Assembly (NCBI RefSeq): GCF_024753565.1
Contig: NZ_JANTPT010000001.1
Coordinates: forward strand, 2,001,336 to 2,065,335
Direction: 5' to 3'
Source: Mechercharimyces sp. CAU 1602
GTDB taxonomy: Bacteria > Bacillota > Bacilli > Thermoactinomycetales > JANTPT01
DNA length: 64,000 nucleotides
In this document: positions 2,885 through 55,986 of the stretch, piece by piece
Layout: the number at the start of each line of letters is the position of its first letter
How positions within the stretch are numbered: the first letter of the stretch is position 1
Position numbers and translations under genes: made by a program
Notes under the pieces: generated by a model
What the model was told of the DNA's origin: nothing
The model's input: the letters and a program-made list of their open reading frames with translations, nothing else
Database searches by the model: none

Positions 2885-3532
2885 CTATTTAGATAATCGA
2901 ATTTCCCGATTACAAATTTCTTTCACCACAGGATCATGAGTAACGATAATTATGGTTTTTCCTTTTTGATTCAACTTATTTAAAATTTGTAATATATCAT
3001 CTCTGTTTCTTTCGTCTAGAGAACCTGTTGGTTCATCGGCTAAAATCAACTCACAGGGTTTGAGAAGAAGACGCGCCATAGCAACCCGTTGTTGTTCTCC
3101 CCCTGATAGTTCATGTATTTTTTGCTTTAGTGAAAGGTTTAACCCTACTTCACGAAGAGCCTGCACTTTTAACTCTCTTTTTTCTTTTTTTGATTTTCTC
3201 ACATAGGTCAACGGAATTGTGAGATTTTCGTTCAAAGTAGCTTGCTCAATTAAAGCGTAATTCTGGAATAAAAAAGATATTTTTGTGCGAAGAAGGATAT
3301 TTGCTTTTCGTGATCGAATAGATGGTCTTTCTTCACCAAACAACTTCACAATTCCTTCATTTGGGTTTTCTAACATGCCGATGATGTTTAGTAAGGTGGT
3401 TTTACCCGAACCACTCTCTCCAGTGATAGCAATAATGTCTCCTTGAACAACATCAAAGCAAATTTTATCGAAAACTGTGTTATTTCCATACCGTTTGGTT
3501 ACATGTTCAATTTCACAGACTAAATTCATCAC
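2885..3532 (-). CDS. ABC transporter ATP-binding protein, bacteriocin-export/immunity type
   Basis: A 215-residue ATPase with Walker [10 protein letters not shown] (about 37-45), Q-loop FQNYAL, signature [14 protein letters not shown], Walker [13 protein letters not shown] and the switch His in IIIVTHDP. Short ATPases of this kind pair with large FtsX-like permeases (MacB/LolD branch). The nearest type I can name is the putative lactococcin 972-group exporter ATPase. Its start codon touches the stop of the upstream permease frame (3532), so the two are translationally coupled. With the split membrane protein it would form one transporter, probably acting on a peptide rather than a small solute. 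Substrate unknown. Confidence 0.75.
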
Positions 3533-4836
3533 TAGTTTCCTCCCTTAATTACATTGATCTTGTTTCGATTCTCCATCACGGCAAGAGTAATCACAGTTGC
3601 CACGACTTCAATACCTAGTAAAATGAGAATGATTACCAGAAAATTTATGTTCATAACTCCATGAATAGATTGGAGCATAGGAGGCTGTGCCAAGTCCATC
3701 AATCTACTAAACAGAATAAAGAGTATAGAGGTAAAGATTAACCATGAGAAGGCACTACAATAGGTTTTATAAAATCCAATACCGAATATACGTTTAACTA
3801 CCAATCGTTTTTGATGCTCATGAAAAAAAATGATCATATTCTGTACAGTCAAAAATATGAACGTTCCAAAAACTCCTAACATTAATAAAGAGATTATATT
3901 AATCTCTTTTTGTAAGGAATTCACTTCTTCTTCTACATATTCTTGAAGAGAAGATATCTTGACTTCATCATCCAAATGATATGTCTTTAATTCAGACTCA
4001 AGCTCTTCATAGGTAAGTGAAGTACTCCCATCGATTAACTTAAGTTTTAATGGATCAGATAGTCCCTTTCCCTTAATGCCGCTTCTATAGGTAAATAAGT
4101 AGTTGTTTTCCGTCTTTACATGCAGGATTGGATCAAGGATTTTATTGAACTGAGATGGGAAAACTTCCGGATTAAAGCTAAATATATACTGGTCATTTTC
4201 CATCCAGATAATTTTCATCTCCTGTCCTTCGTCTTTTACAAGATAAAAATCTCTCATTTCCTTATCTTTATAAAAATATTCTCGAATATCTTTTTCTCGA
4301 TCGCGATATTTTTCAGGGACAAGCACAATCCAGTCTATCTCGGATTCAGTGACCTCTACAATGTTTCCCTCCAGATCAAAAGCAGGGAACTCTTTTAAAT
4401 AATTTATGTTTATAGTTACAGACAAAATCCCTCCCGTATTTGCATTTAACAGCAGCGAATCTTCTTCGTACTGACTAGTATCGATGTAGACTGATCCTAT
4501 CTTATTAAACAGTGGATATAATCTATATAGCTCATCGCCCACTTCATATTGTTCTTCTAACTCTTCCTCTATGGTATATGCTGTTGTATGGCCAACGTAA
4601 AATTCAGCTATACCATAGCCCCTCATGTTTCCCCATCTTCCCATGTCTTTTTTATGAGATAGAATACGATCTTCTTGAGTATGTAAGTTAGTATACTGGG
4701 TTATTAATGACATACCTGTTAAAACCAAAACAGTAGCACACACGACTTTTAACATCATGTTAAATAGGAATATAATACGGGTGTCTCTTCTGTTTTTTAA
4801 CATTTGGCTTACTTTGATAGAAGCAATATTGTCCAT
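3532..4836 (-). CDS. Bacteriocin-associated membrane protein, C-terminal half (split gene)
   Basis: This frame encodes a membrane anchor (about residues 26-46), a large outside domain (about 50-310) and three membrane segments near 318-340, 352-377 and 393-420. That repeats the plan of the preceding frame, so together they look like one eight-segment permease of the bacteriocin-associated (TIGR01654/DUF1430-like) family, normally a single chain of about 650-700 residues. The first ATG at 4836 has no recognisable ribosome site. The frame overlaps the upstream one by 77 bases in the +1 phase. It may be expressed by frameshifting, by coupling, or not at all. Confidence 0.6.
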   Translation of the reverse strand: MDNIASIKVSQMLKNRRDTRIIFLFNMMLKVVCATVLVLTGMSLITQYTNLHTQEDRILSHKKDMGRWGNMRGYGIAEFYVGHTTAYTIEEELEEQYEVGDELYRLYPLFNKIGSVYIDTSQYEEDSLLLNANTGGILSVTININYLKEFPAFDLEGNIVEVTESEIDWIVLVPEKYRDREKDIREYFYKDKEMRDFYLVKDEGQEMKIIWMENDQYIFSFNPEVFPSQFNKILDPILHVKTENNYLFTYRSGIKGKGLSDPLKLKLIDGSTSLTYEELESELKTYHLDDEVKISSLQEYVEEEVNSLQKEINIISLLMLGVFGTFIFLTVQNMIIFFHEHQKRLVVKRIFGIGFYKTYCSAFSWLIFTSILFILFSRLMDLAQPPMLQSIHGVMNINFLVIILILLGIEVVATVITLAVMENRNKINVIKGGN

Positions 4837-5809
4837 ATAGAAGAACTGATAAGGCTACTAGAAGGAGATATGCTTGAACCAGTTGAGAGATCATCAGAGA
4901 GATAAATGTCCAGGGTGAGGTCAAAACAAACGCGAATACAGCACTTCCACATGCAAAGATTCCAAAAGTAACACTAAGTAAGCGGCCGACAATTCTCCAC
5001 CATAAATAAATGTTAGAGATACCATGAATCTTTAATATTCCGATCGGCTTCGATAAACTTAAAATATAGTAGAGAAACAGCAAAATTGTTATTATATTAA
5101 TAATATATTGTAATTTTTTCATCAAGGACAGGTCTGTTATCTTAAAATATTCCTCTTGAGGTTCAATAAAGGCTTCTTTTGTTTGAAAGTTAGAAGGCGA
5201 GAAAGTGATTTCATCCCCTTCTTTCTCTTTGTTAACAGAAACATTAATTTTATTACTCAACGTTTGTAGAAATTGCTGAACATGTGTTTCGTCTTCAGCT
5301 TCCACAAAGTAGCGTCCTGTTACAGGAAGGTGATCGTATGAAGTCGCTAGTGGCTGAATAGTAATGAGCTGCCTAGGGTCAAAATATTGAATTTGACCGA
5401 TCTGACTCTCCTCTCCCTTCTCCATAGAGGAGAGGAACAAACCTTCTTGTTGACTCTCCTCAGTGCGTAATTCGCGACCTCTCTCTACATGAATATGATC
5501 ATAAAATTGAGTTTTACGAGTAAATAAAACATATTTTATGATCTCTAATTTTTCATCCGGTCGAAGATATCGAGCTGGCCGAAAGAGATTTACATTCTCT
5601 TCTTTCGCGGACTCCAACAAGAGAGGATACATGAGATCTGCATTAGATAACTCTGGTTGATCCGGAATTACGAAAGGAGTCGCAATTTTAGACTCAAGCT
5701 TTACCAGTTGTATCATTTCATTATTTATCATTTGATGATAAGAGATCCATACAGAAAAAGAGAGACTAATCAACACAGAGAGGAATATAGCTTTTTTCAA
5801 ATCCACCAT
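4760..5809 (-). CDS. Bacteriocin-associated membrane protein, N-terminal half (split gene)
   Basis: A 349-residue frame with an N-terminal membrane anchor (about residues 8-24), an outside domain of some 200 residues, then three membrane segments near 233-252, 265-290 and 297-322. The last 12 residues (KKQKRHPYYIPI) follow a run of six A and look like out-of-frame read-through, whereas the overlapping frame continues with family-like sequence. AAAGGAG lies only one base before the ATG at 5809. Translation may really start at the GTG at 5806 (4-base spacing) or the TTG at 5800 (10-base spacing). It is the second gene of the operon, overlapping the small peptide gene. Confidence 0.6.
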   Translation of the reverse strand: MVDLKKAIFLSVLISLSFSVWISYHQMINNEMIQLVKLESKIATPFVIPDQPELSNADLMYPLLLESAKEENVNLFRPARYLRPDEKLEIIKYVLFTRKTQFYDHIHVERGRELRTEESQQEGLFLSSMEKGEESQIGQIQYFDPRQLITIQPLATSYDHLPVTGRYFVEAEDETHVQQFLQTLSNKINVSVNKEKEGDEITFSPSNFQTKEAFIEPQEEYFKITDLSLMKKLQYIINIITILLFLYYILSLSKPIGILKIHGISNIYLWWRIVGRLLSVTFGIFACGSAVFAFVLTSPWTFISLMISQLVQAYLLLVALSVLLYGQYCFYQSKPNVKKQKRHPYYIPI

Positions 5810-5906
5810 TCTCCTTTGTAGCTAAAGATATATAGAAGAAGGATAACGATGTAATGAAAAGAGCCATCAACCCCCACTTGTTTTGACGCGAAAGAAAACC
5901 TGTCAT
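5766..5906 (-). CDS. 46-residue single-span membrane peptide leading the ABC operon
   Basis: The frame starts at an ATG at 5906 and ends with TAG at 5766. Positive residues lead (MTGFLSRQNK), one hydrophobic span follows (about residues 11-29), then a short polar tail with one Cys (KENGGFEKSYIPLCVD). GGAGAGTG lies eight bases before the ATG, and a sigma-A promoter stands about 48 bases upstream of it. It overlaps the next gene by 44 bases and carries that gene's ribosome site, so it could be a coupling leader, a small permease subunit or the peptide substrate. It does not resemble a lactococcin 972 precursor. No homologue recognised. Confidence 0.45.
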   Translation of the reverse strand: MTGFLSRQNKWGLMALFITSLSFFYISLATKENGGFEKSYIPLCVD

Positions 5907-5953
5907 TACTAGATCACTCTCCTAAATAGTATTTTTTGTTATAATTAGGTAAC

Positions 5954-5989
5954 TACTATGATAGTATTCCGACAAGCGAGTAGAGTCAA
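5954..5989 (-). promoter_or_regulatory. Sigma-A promoter with palindromic operator, ABC operon
   Basis: On the reverse strand TTGACT (5984-5989) and TACTAT (5961-5966) are separated by exactly 17 bases. The -10 hexamer is one arm of a perfect 13-base palindrome, TACTATcATAGTA (5954-5966). A protein bound there would block RNA polymerase. No regulator gene is adjacent. Confidence 0.65.
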
Positions 5990-6264
5990 GTTATTTTCTT
6001 ACTTTTTATATTATTTAGTTTTTTGTTTGTTGTTGAGTTATATCATTTATAATAAAACCTCAAAATATACTTTTTTAAGATATATGGCAAAGAGAAAGTG
6101 AAGAAGATAACATTGGCTCAAGAGATCAGCCAATTAACAACGTTTCAGCATCCGGCCTATATGTTGGTGGACTCATGATGCTTAAATTCATGATTACACA
6201 TGCGACACTTGCTTTTTTGTTATGATAGGTGCGCTCCTCTTGATTTGAGCATACCCCACAACTA
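5990..6264. other. Non-coding gap upstream of the ABC operon
   Basis: AT-rich spacer between the operon promoter and the terminator of the first AGCS gene. I looked for a bacteriocin precursor on both strands and found no frame with a ribosome site and a signal peptide. Confidence 0.5.
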
Positions 6265-6300
6265 AAAAAGTACGGGAACTTATTCCTAAGCCCCCGTACT
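6265..6300 (-). terminator. Intrinsic terminator after first AGCS gene
   Basis: On the reverse strand AGTACGGG (6293-6300) pairs with CCCGTACT (6270-6277) and is followed by TTTTT. It sits directly after the symporter stop at 6306. Confidence 0.8.
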
Positions 6301-6305
6301 CTCCT

Positions 6306-7757
6306 TTAACTTACCTCTCTTTTATTAGCCCCCATTTGCTCTCCAACCTCTTGATCCTCTTGCCAACACTCGACACCTTTAAGTCCTTCTATCTTATGCG
6401 CATAAAAGACAGGGTCTTTCCCTTGCTTCCGCTGTTCCATATAGTCCCTCAGCGCTGCAAAGGCGTATTTACCGATAATCAAAATAGCAACTAGGTTGAT
6501 AAATGCCATCAGAGCCATCGCCAGATCTGCCAAGCTCCATACTAGTTGTAGACTAGCAAGTGCTCCAAAAGCAACCATCCCCAAGGCTGCGATCCGGTAT
6601 ACATAGAGTGACGCTTTCCTTTTACTCACAAAGCCAATATTGGCTTCGCCATAATAGTAACTACCAACGATGGAGCTAAAGGCAAAGGTCAAGATCGCTA
6701 TCGCTAAGAATCCCCCTGCCCATGAGCCAAAATGTTCACCCATTGCCGCTTGGGTTAAGTTTACCCCAGTTAATTCTGCAGAGCCCTGCTTTCCTGAGAG
6801 CAATATAATCGAAGCTGTGGCCGTACATACCAACAATGTGTCGAAAAAGACACCCATCGCTTGAATAAATCCTTGTTTGACAGGGTGCGATACTTCCGCT
6901 GTCGCCGCAGCATTAGGGGCACTCCCCATCCCTGCTTCGTTAGAGAAAAGACCACGCTTTACTCCCATCGAGATAGCAGCTCCCATTCCACCACCTACTA
7001 CCTCTTCAAATCCAAATGCACTTTTGAAGATGAGTAGAAGCATCGCTGGAATCTCAGTAAAATTACTAAAGGTGACATATAAAGCTAGTACCATGTAGAA
7101 AACCGCCATCACTGGCACTACTTTTTCTGAAAAGCGGGCAATCCGTGCGACCCCACCAAAGATAATAACTCCCGTCAATACTGTCAGCACAATCGCAATC
7201 ACCATCGGATTAATGGAGAAGGAACCAGTAAACGCTTCTGCAATCGTATTACTTTGTACAGAGTTAAAGACTAAACCAAAACTTACAATAATCCCAATTG
7301 CAAAAGCACGACTCATCCATTTAGAACCAATCTGCTTTTGAATATAGTAAGCAGGACCTCCTCTGTAACCTACTTCATCTTTCACCTTATATATCTGTGC
7401 CAAAGTGCTTTCAACAAAAGCTGTCGCACCTCCTAGCACCGCTACTAACCACATCCAAAACACTGCACCCGGACCGCCCGCAGCGATCGCCGTAGCAACA
7501 CCAGCGACGTTACCCGTTCCTATTCTGGTTGCCGCCCCAATCATAAAAGCTTGCAAAGAGGAAATTTGATTTTTATCTTTTTTATCGAACGAAGGCTTCT
7601 CCGCTAACACACGGATCATTTCCCTAAAGTAGCGCATCTGCCCGAATTTCATTCGAATCGTGAAATAAACACCTGCACCTAATAATAATCCAATTAAAAT
7701 ATAAGACCATAAGATATTATTGATGAAATTGATGCTATTTGCAAATAAGTCATACAT
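6306..7757 (-). CDS. AGCS-family amino acid:cation symporter (paralog 1)
   Basis: A 483-residue membrane protein of the alanine/glycine:cation symporter family (AlsT/DagA type), which imports small neutral amino acids or glutamine with Na+ or H+. It shows the family signature near residues 72-100 (ATRIGTGNVAGVATAI, then GGPGAVFWMW), the GGPAYYI block, and GLFSNEAGMGSAPNAAATA near 270-288. About ten membrane helices are evident, with a charged cytoplasmic tail. It stands immediately downstream of a close paralog in the same orientation; each has its own terminator, so the pair need not be co-transcribed. The substrate cannot be read from sequence. Confidence 0.85.
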   Translation of the reverse strand: MYDLFANSINFINNILWSYILIGLLLGAGVYFTIRMKFGQMRYFREMIRVLAEKPSFDKKDKNQISSLQAFMIGAATRIGTGNVAGVATAIAAGGPGAVFWMWLVAVLGGATAFVESTLAQIYKVKDEVGYRGGPAYYIQKQIGSKWMSRAFAIGIIVSFGLVFNSVQSNTIAEAFTGSFSINPMVIAIVLTVLTGVIIFGGVARIARFSEKVVPVMAVFYMVLALYVTFSNFTEIPAMLLLIFKSAFGFEEVVGGGMGAAISMGVKRGLFSNEAGMGSAPNAAATAEVSHPVKQGFIQAMGVFFDTLLVCTATASIILLSGKQGSAELTGVNLTQAAMGEHFGSWAGGFLAIAILTFAFSSIVGSYYYGEANIGFVSKRKASLYVYRIAALGMVAFGALASLQLVWSLADLAMALMAFINLVAILIIGKYAFAALRDYMEQRKQGKDPVFYAHKIEGLKGVECWQEDQEVGEQMGANKREVS

Positions 7758-8025: not shown

Positions 8026-9459
8026 TTACGCTTGCTTCTTTTCCTCTACAGGACGATGATCCCACGCTTCTACACCTTTTAGACCCTCAATGCTATCAGC
8101 ATAGAAGACAGGATCCTTCCCGGCTTTTCGCTGATCTACATAATCTTTTAACGCAGCGAACGCAATCTTACCAAGCAGGGCAATAGCTATCAAGTTGGTT
8201 AGCGCCATGAACGCCATTGCTAAGTCTGCCAATTTCCATACAATTTCCAGGCTCGCCAGTGCACCAAACGCAATCATACCCAGTGCAATGACCCGGTAGG
8301 TAAGAAGTGCGGTATTACTCTTACTAATAAAGCCAATGTTTGCTTCTCCATAATAATAGCTACCGATAATGGAGCTAAAGGCGAAGGTAAAGATAGCTAT
8401 GGCAAGGAAAATCCCAGCCCAAGAACCAAAGTGAGAATCCATAGCTGCCTGCGTTAAGGCGATTCCATTCAATCCATCCTCTGATCCTTTTACACCAGAC
8501 AAGATAATAATAAATGCTGTCGCGCTACATACCAGAATCGTATCAAAGAACACTCCAAGCGCTTGAATAAAACCTTGTTTTGCTGGGTGAGAAACGGTCG
8601 CCGTCGCTGCGGCATTCGGAGCACTCCCCATCCCTGCCTCATTGGAGAAGAGACCACGTTTTACACCCATCATGATAGCAGCACCAATCCCACCACCTAG
8701 AGCTTGTTCCAAACCAAATGCACTCTTGAAAATAAGCATAAATGCATCAGGAACCGCACCCAAGTTTGTAAAGAACACATAGAGTGCCAAGATGATGTAA
8801 AAAACAGCCATGAAAGGTACCACAATCTCTGAGAAGCGAGCAATCCGCTTAATCCCCCCAAAGATGATCACGCCGGAAAGCAATACCAGAACAACTGCCA
8901 TGATTCTAGCATCAAAACTAAATGAGTTACTAAATGCATCTGAGATCGTATTACTTTGTACAGCGTTAAAGGTTAAGCCGAAGCTAGCAATGATCGTCAC
9001 AGCAAAAATGGCACTTAACCAGCTCGCCCCTAATTGCTTTTTGATATAGTAACCAGGGCCACCCTTAAAACCAACCTTATCTTTTACCTTATAAATCTGC
9101 GCTAGCGTACTTTCTACAAAAGCAGTTGCCCCACCTAATAATGCAACGATCCACATCCAAAAAACAGCACCTGGTCCCCCGAGCGCGATCGCCGTAGCCA
9201 CCCCTGCCAGGTTACCCGTTCCTATTCTCGTTGCCGCTCCGATCAAGAAGGCCTGCATCGAGGTGATCTGCTTCTTGTCATCTAACGTAATCGCTGTTTT
9301 ATCAAAGAGGACGCGAAACATTTCTTTCAGATACGTAATCTGTACTGCCTTGGTGAAAATAGTAAAATAAACACCTAATCCTAGTAAAAGACCAATCAAC
9401 ACATAAGACCACAGATATTCATTTAAAAAGTCTACTGTTGCAGTTAAAAAATCTAACAA
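8026..9459 (-). CDS. AGCS-family amino acid:cation symporter (paralog 2)
   Basis: A 477-residue symporter, clearly a duplicate of the next gene: the same signature (ATRIGTGNLAGVATAI), the same GLFSNEAGMGSAPNAAATA block, and a matching tail (KDPVFYADSIEGLKGVE against KDPVFYAHKIEGLKGVE). It should move a small amino acid across the membrane with a cation. Differences cluster in loops and the carboxyl end, which may separate regulation or affinity. A well-formed sigma-A promoter lies just upstream, so it is transcribed on its own. Confidence 0.85.
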   Translation of the reverse strand: MLDFLTATVDFLNEYLWSYVLIGLLLGLGVYFTIFTKAVQITYLKEMFRVLFDKTAITLDDKKQITSMQAFLIGAATRIGTGNLAGVATAIALGGPGAVFWMWIVALLGGATAFVESTLAQIYKVKDKVGFKGGPGYYIKKQLGASWLSAIFAVTIIASFGLTFNAVQSNTISDAFSNSFSFDARIMAVVLVLLSGVIIFGGIKRIARFSEIVVPFMAVFYIILALYVFFTNLGAVPDAFMLIFKSAFGLEQALGGGIGAAIMMGVKRGLFSNEAGMGSAPNAAATATVSHPAKQGFIQALGVFFDTILVCSATAFIIILSGVKGSEDGLNGIALTQAAMDSHFGSWAGIFLAIAIFTFAFSSIIGSYYYGEANIGFISKSNTALLTYRVIALGMIAFGALASLEIVWKLADLAMAFMALTNLIAIALLGKIAFAALKDYVDQRKAGKDPVFYADSIEGLKGVEAWDHRPVEEKKQA

Positions 9460-54396: not shown

Positions 54397-55146
54397 TTAT
54401 GACTTTGCCTTTGCTTTTTTCTTGGGTTTCGTCTTCTCATACTTATCAATCATCTCGTTAATATCACCCACATCTTTTACCTTGCCTTTTTCTAATATCA
54501 AGGCACGATCACAAATCTTGCGCAATGGATCGAGGCTGTGCGATACAATTACTAGCGTCTTTCCTTCTCTCCTTAATTCCTGCATCTTTTCATTACATTT
54601 CTTGCGGAAGTCCTTATCGCCCACCGCTAAAACTTCGTCCACAAGAATAATGTCTGCATCAATATGGATAGCAATGGAGAATCCCAACCGCGCTTTCATC
54701 CCGGAAGAGTAAAACTTAACAGGCGTGTTGATAAAGTCCCCTAGTTCGGAGAACTCTTTAATCATCGGGGTTACTTCTTCCATGCGCTCTCGGCTCAAAC
54801 CAAAGATAGCACAATTGAGACGAATATTTTCTTCACCAGTAAGATCCCGACTCAAACCAGCTCCCAATTCGATTAAAGGTGCTACTTTTCCATTAATCTT
54901 TACCTTCCCATTATCTTGGTGAATTATACCACTTAACACTTTGAATAGTGTACTCTTACCTGCCCCATTCTTCCCGATTATCGCATATCCTTCCCCTTGC
55001 TTTACATTAAAGGAGACATCCTCTAGAGCCACAAACTCTTCATACTTTTTTTCTCGCTTCGCCAACGTGATGAAGCGACCCTTAAGCGTTTTATCATATG
55101 GCTTTCGGAAATGTTTTGAGACATGTTCAACAACGATCGCATCCAT
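54397..55146 (-). CDS. tagH: Polysaccharide/teichoic acid export ATPase (TagH/Wzt type)
   Basis: A 249-residue ATPase with an early DAIVVEHVSKHFRKP start, Walker A GKNGAGKST (about 58-66), ENIRLNCAIFGLSRE, signature region FYSSGMKARLGFSIA, and Walker B ADIILVDEVLAVGD. The EVLAVGD box is typical of TagH, Wzt and KpsT ATPases that export cell-wall polymers with a two-segment permease. It lacks the long C-terminal domain of B. subtilis TagH, ending in a Lys-rich tail. Three bases separate it from the permease gene. Confidence 0.8.
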   Translation of the reverse strand: MDAIVVEHVSKHFRKPYDKTLKGRFITLAKREKKYEEFVALEDVSFNVKQGEGYAIIGKNGAGKSTLFKVLSGIIHQDNGKVKINGKVAPLIELGAGLSRDLTGEENIRLNCAIFGLSRERMEEVTPMIKEFSELGDFINTPVKFYSSGMKARLGFSIAIHIDADIILVDEVLAVGDKDFRKKCNEKMQELRREGKTLVIVSHSLDPLRKICDRALILEKGKVKDVGDINEMIDKYEKTKPKKKAKAKS

Positions 55147-55149
55147 GGT

Positions 55150-55986
55150 TTAGATCACTTCCCCTACACGACGGTTCAAGCGTTTAAAACTTACCCAAGC
55201 GACTACAAATAGAACAGTTACAAAGAGTATGCAATATATGATACCATACCTGTCTACAGCCCCTGTTACGTCCCCTGAGAAAAAGAGTTGTTGGTACAAA
55301 TTAATAATAGGTACCATCGGATTCAAATTATATAAGAAAACAAATACTTCTGTCGTCATACCAAACGGAAGATTTACTTCATCCACTTTATCCATCAAGT
55401 ACTTCACCGGATAAATAATAGGTGTAAGATACATCCATCCTCTTAACACCAGATTAATAATAAATTCAACATCACGGTAGTATACATTAATTGCTCCCAA
55501 GAGCAAGGCAAAGCTAAAAGCAAGGATAGATTGTAAAAGAATCAATCCTGGTAGGTATAGAAAGTGGAGCCATTGAATTTCACTCGGGTTAAAAATGAGC
55601 GCGGCTACGATAACCAACAATAACGCTGGAACAAAATTAACCATATTAGCTAACACATCTGTCAGCGGGAAGATCTGTCGTGGAAAATATATTTTCTTTA
55701 ATAACGAACCATTTCGTGAAAGAGAAGTCATGCCTCTTTTTAATGTATTGTTAAAAAACATCCAAGGCATCATCCCAGCTAAGATAAACAATGGATACTT
55801 ACCTTCAAAAGGTTCAGCCCATCCCCTACCTATAACCGAAAAAACCAAGGCATAAATCATCATTAATCCCAATGGTTCTAATAATGTCCAGAAAAAACCA
55901 AAAAAAGAATTGCGATACCGTATGCGAATTTCTTTGTGTACAAGGAAATAAATCAGTTCTTTATATTTTATCAGCTCTCGAAACAT
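55150..55986 (-). CDS. tagG: Polysaccharide/teichoic acid export permease (TagG/Wzm type)
   Basis: A 278-residue ABC-2-type permease with six membrane helices and an N-terminal cytoplasmic coupling helix (RELIKYKELIYFLVHKEIRIRYRNSFFG blocks, then FWTLLEPLGLMMIYALVFS). The central NVYYRDVEFIINLVLRGWMYLTPIIYPV is the conserved segment of TagG/Wzm permeases. AAGGAG precedes the ATG. With the ATPase downstream it should export a lipid-linked polymer such as a teichoic acid. The polymer itself is not identified. Confidence 0.85.
   Translation of the reverse strand: MFRELIKYKELIYFLVHKEIRIRYRNSFFGFFWTLLEPLGLMMIYALVFSVIGRGWAEPFEGKYPLFILAGMMPWMFFNNTLKRGMTSLSRNGSLLKKIYFPRQIFPLTDVLANMVNFVPALLLVIVAALIFNPSEIQWLHFLYLPGLILLQSILAFSFALLLGAINVYYRDVEFIINLVLRGWMYLTPIIYPVKYLMDKVDEVNLPFGMTTEVFVFLYNLNPMVPIINLYQQLFFSGDVTGAVDRYGIIYCILFVTVLFVVAWVSFKRLNRRVGEVI

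Follow-up and report, generated by a model that had tools for sequence, protein, structure and literature searches.

The closest described relatives of the locus reported here belong to the TIGR01654/DUF1430 family of bacteriocin-associated integral membrane proteins, which includes pneumococcal ScbB and, in the lactococcal lcn972 operon, the products of orf2-orf3, two genes with a putative role in immunity. The immunity function is reported to be experimentally unverified in any lactococcin 972 locus, and among 571 pneumococcal genomes 157 (27.5%) carry scbBC only (PMC11796350). A second point of reference is provided by the type VII (MacB/FtsX-like) ABC transporters, which are the basis of the analogy of mechanism that is drawn below (PMC5985334). 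We compare these systems with an operon in a stretch of 64,000 nucleotides (the window) from the genome of Mechercharimyces sp. CAU 1602.

The operon lies on the minus strand of the window, with the permease preceding the ATPase, and consists of three reading frames: ORF A (4760-5809, 349 aa), which encodes permease lobe 1; ORF B (3532-4836, 434 aa), which encodes lobe 2; and the ABC ATPase (2885-3532, likeliest start ATG 3529, with GGGAGG upstream as a ribosome site). ORF A and ORF B overlap by 77 nt, and passing from the first to the second takes a +1 step, ORF B being one base ahead of ORF A; apart from this single step all three frames are completely open. The overlapping frames and the +1 step had been described in a first-pass annotation of the same DNA and were reproduced here with the coordinates given, as was its division of each permease frame into an anchor, an outside domain and three helices. 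In a hydropathy scan, each half exhibits four hydrophobic helices, one of them N-terminal and separated by a long non-membrane stretch from three at the C-terminus, and thereby has the layout of a type VII permease (four helices, the first two flanking the outside domain). The region does not extend as a permease to 5906, the bound that had been assigned to it; a separate ORF of 46 aa (5766-5906, minus strand) begins at this position, and the permease starts at TTG 5800 or ATG 5809. Of the two, the TTG, which is preceded by AAAGGAG and corresponds to the LKK start of the homologues, is the likelier. The 46-aa ORF overlaps the start of ORF A, encodes one hydrophobic stretch and has an AGGAG 12 nt upstream; it matches no family and has no consistent counterpart in the relatives. 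The idea that a small ORF is conserved between the bacteriocin gene and the permease was rejected, the frame being inconsistent across relatives. Beside the operon, two similar tandem genes (6306-7757 and 8026-9459) resemble sodium:alanine-type symporters by eye.

The ATPase matches TIGR03608 (L_ocin_972_ABC, a model for putative bacteriocin export ABC transporters of lactococcin 972 type) over its full length (E 1.5e-84; 282.6 bits, above the curated cut-off of 254.85) and retains intact Walker A, Q-loop, signature, Walker B, D-loop and H-switch motifs, although its branch is longer than those of its relatives. The alignment of both permease frames to TIGR01654 and DUF1430 that the first-pass annotation had proposed gave matches to both models for ORF B and related ORF A to the family only by way of lobe 1 of the homologues. 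ORF B covers positions 276-681 of the 681 in TIGR01654 (the last 406; E 4.5e-47), and its 160.9 bits, which fall short of the curated cut-off of 189.35, are obtained with lobe 1 in the other frame; the intact permease of genome G019, from the same order, scores 208.5 bits. The match of ORF B to DUF1430 (E 2.5e-6) is slightly below the cut-off of that model. ORF A alone is above cut-off for no family model; it does, however, share 42-50% identity with lobe 1 of homologues from the same order, and the second lobe of these homologues is matched by ORF B (48-55% identity). A lactococcin 972-type operon can be recognized by an ATPase of TIGR03608, a continuous permease chain above the TIGR01654 cut-off and an upstream PF09683 gene; the window has the first, and neither the continuous, above-threshold permease nor the PF09683 gene. 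With the known TIGR01654 systems the locus shares the lobe 2 match and the order of permease and ATPase, and its same-order homologues adjoin a lactococcin 972 gene; it is unlike them in that its permease is split by one base and no bacteriocin gene was found in its genome. Judged by these profile matches and by the intact single-chain homologues described below, the locus is a member of the lactococcin 972-type ABC operon family, and the earlier proposal of such an operon with one long permease chain is upheld.

Likeness to the type VII transporters lies in the plan that each lobe shares with them (one helix, an outside domain and three helices), whereas the relatives of the window permease carry two lobes in one chain, with the ATPase separate. 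An intact homologue gave a weak match to FtsX (E 0.002), below the curated cut-off, and a search of solved structures by sequence gave no match. The structure models of ORF A and ORF B were poor (mean pLDDT 58 and 39, from shallow alignments of 3 and 4 rows), and a Foldseek comparison of the lobe 1 model with MacB (5gko) was not significant (E 3.1, TM 0.27). Homology between lobe 1 and lobe 2 was likewise not significant in a profile comparison (9% probability).

In three genomes of the same order, G019, G025 and G021 (Kroppenstedtia guangzhouensis), the counterpart of A plus B is one open frame of about 750-760 aa, and matches to TIGR01654 in 54 of 398 genomes of the class are nearly all single frames of about 650-800 aa. 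Alignment to these proteins places the step at the end of lobe 1 helix 4, in the cytoplasmic linker between the two lobes: ORF A follows the family as far as ...LSVLLYG (codon ending at 4832), ORF B takes over from IASIKVSQ (from 4827), and the tail of ORF A past the step (YCFYQSKPNVKK...) departs from the homologues. In the DNA of the homologues a single codon (TAT or TAC) stands between the Gly/Val and Ile/Leu/Met codons, where the window has four bases. Four bases in place of one codon, together with the change of frame between LLYG and IASIKVSQ, locate an extra base at about 4828-4831. The first-pass annotation had placed the step about 30 nt farther downstream, at a run of six A (4793-4798), and had suggested that one A fewer would restore the chain. 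The run does exist; the step is not there, since the homologue DNA is equally long across it (CTT AAA AAC AGA AAA GAC ACC in G019, TTA AAA AAC AGA AGA GAC ACC in the window), which rules the run out as the site and refutes the suggested repair.

The position of the extra base also bears on two explanations that would leave a full-length permease in existence. Programmed +1 frameshifting or transcriptional slippage might yield some full-length chain, given that the step required is +1 and that the downstream frame stays open. By inspection, however, there is neither a stop codon nor a recognizable slippery site at the step; the A AAA AAC heptamer at the A-run lies in frame B, which a -1 slip would leave rather than enter; and the relatives, which are continuous at the step and need no such device, do not conserve a slip site. 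Recoding, the second of three options offered by the first-pass annotation, is thus unsupported and appears very improbable. An error of sequencing or assembly, with a true gene of one chain, would be in keeping with an otherwise intact operon and with a draft genome of 11 contigs. Most indel errors arise in homopolymers, but the four-base site is not one. Moreover, the genes for LigA (672 aa), PurH (519 aa) and PurD (428 aa) in the window are of normal full length, inspection of the ORF list disclosed no further split genes in the 64 kb, and the permeases of relatives are broken too, in some cases by stop codons. We therefore regard an error as unlikely.

The remaining option was that of two real half-genes. 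ORF A and ORF B might have become two working half-proteins that pair as a heterodimer, with ORF B translated from ATG 4836, which would keep its N-terminal linker helix, or from ATG 4758. A heterodimer of half-transporters would be in line with type VII ABC systems, where a dimer is the usual form, and the break does fall at the lobe boundary, leaves four hydrophobic helices in each lobe and both frames otherwise open, and has an ATG both at 4836 and directly past the ORF A stop. In conflict with such an arrangement, no ribosome site was found for ORF B, either at ATG 4836 or at ATG 4758/4755 just past that stop, so that lobe 2 is unlikely to be made efficiently; it is probably made poorly or not at all, as far as its translation signals indicate. 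In addition, ORF A bears the unconserved tail, and an independent break inside helix 4 of the permease of a relative (G023) would leave no clean halves. Two intact half-genes were found for none of the homologues in the 398 class genomes, and the split as a conserved gene order, with the halves as separate genes in relatives, was accordingly rejected. Working half-proteins are in our judgment improbable, and the more specific scenario, in which a single base would have split a fused permease into halves that still pair and work, reversing the founding fusion of the family, is improbable as well. This leaves a recent frameshift as the best supported of the three options.

No PF09683 (lactococcin 972) gene was found anywhere in this genome, and six frames of the interval 5700-6320 displayed no remnant of a bacteriocin gene. 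In G021, G023, G027 (Paludifilum halophilum) and both copies of the operon in G025, a PF09683 gene lies just upstream of the permease. G019 has an intact permease and yet no PF09683 match, which means that an orphan operon is not necessarily a broken one. The pneumococcal scbBC loci without scbA likewise retain immunity-type genes in the absence of a bacteriocin gene; there the bacteriocin gene was lost by a known deletion (PMC11796350), whereas in the window the permease is frame-broken as well.

We consider it likely that the locus is an orphan lactococcin 972 immunity-type operon in which the permease was frame-broken by a single-base indel and the gene is decaying. The ancestral permease would have been one chain of about 750 residues with two MacB-like lobes, partnered by a separate ATPase. 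By analogy with the type VII systems, the lobes of the intact form would link the cycles of the ATPase to motion of their outside domains; at the face of the membrane the pump would probably clear away or shut out a lipid-II-binding bacteriocin and so protect the cell. The indel at about 4828-4831 would have shifted lobe 2 out of frame, such that translation from near 5800 would produce lobe 1 followed by about 22 missense residues and a stop at 4760. With no bacteriocin gene left, selection on the operon is likely to be weak and the permease gene to be decaying. Taken alone, such a locus is unremarkable, one more broken member of a known family; it is of some value as a natural split between the lobes of a protein for whose family no experimental verification of function is reported.

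The divergence of the operon bears on the age of the break and on selection. In trees that were fixed to one shared topology with four relatives, the branch of this lineage relative to the mean of the four was 1.3 for lobe 1, 1.5 for lobe 2 and 3.0 for the ATPase, compared with 0.9 for the LigA benchmark; the largest excess thus belongs to the unbroken ATPase. The G+C content of the operon (2885-5809) is 0.34-0.36, as against 0.449 +/- 0.025 for 40 window genes. Long branches and low G+C fit weaker selection, a horizontal origin, or both; the low G+C may point to a foreign origin, and the excess in branch length may stem from horizontal transfer rather than from relaxation. Viral and plasmid collections contained no close copy of the locus. 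A gene pair at 54397-55986 resembles, by eye, a polysaccharide-export ABC ATPase and permease. Of the genes compared, none outside the operon is strongly A+T-rich except the permease gene of this pair (G+C 0.36). Over about 750 codons there is no second stop or shift, and in a neutral simulation the chance of acquiring no new stop after change at 3% of sites was ~5%. That the frames are still open despite this small neutral chance means that the break is recent or that the parts are still of some use.

Breaks in this permease are not peculiar to the window. Within the order, the permease of G023 carries its independent one-base shift ~30 codons upstream of the window's step, lobe 2 of that of Paludifilum halophilum is interrupted by a TAG, a 5' frameshift affects the second G025 copy, and G011 has a permease remnant. 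Elsewhere in the class, a TAG interrupts the permease of G187, and only C-terminal permease stumps are left in G222 and G105. Broken copies are commoner in the order (5/11) than elsewhere in the class (4/55; Fisher p 0.005), a figure that is only indicative, since the copies were tallied by hand and the half-proteins, which find broken copies more easily, served as additional queries for the order. In Paludifilum halophilum (L022, 5230-5400 and 7067-7450) the lactococcin 972 gene is open upstream of the permease with the TAG, and in G023 (L025, 5480-5690 and 6599-6913) it is open upstream of the permease with the one-base shift; broken permeases beside open lactococcin 972 genes imply that an intact permease may be dispensable for producers. 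The frequency of such breaks in the order, some of them beside an open bacteriocin gene, calls into question the need for the permease in immunity. In G222 (L059, 3392-5440), the 307-aa C-terminal permease stump directly follows transposase-like genes, which suggests an IS-linked truncation.
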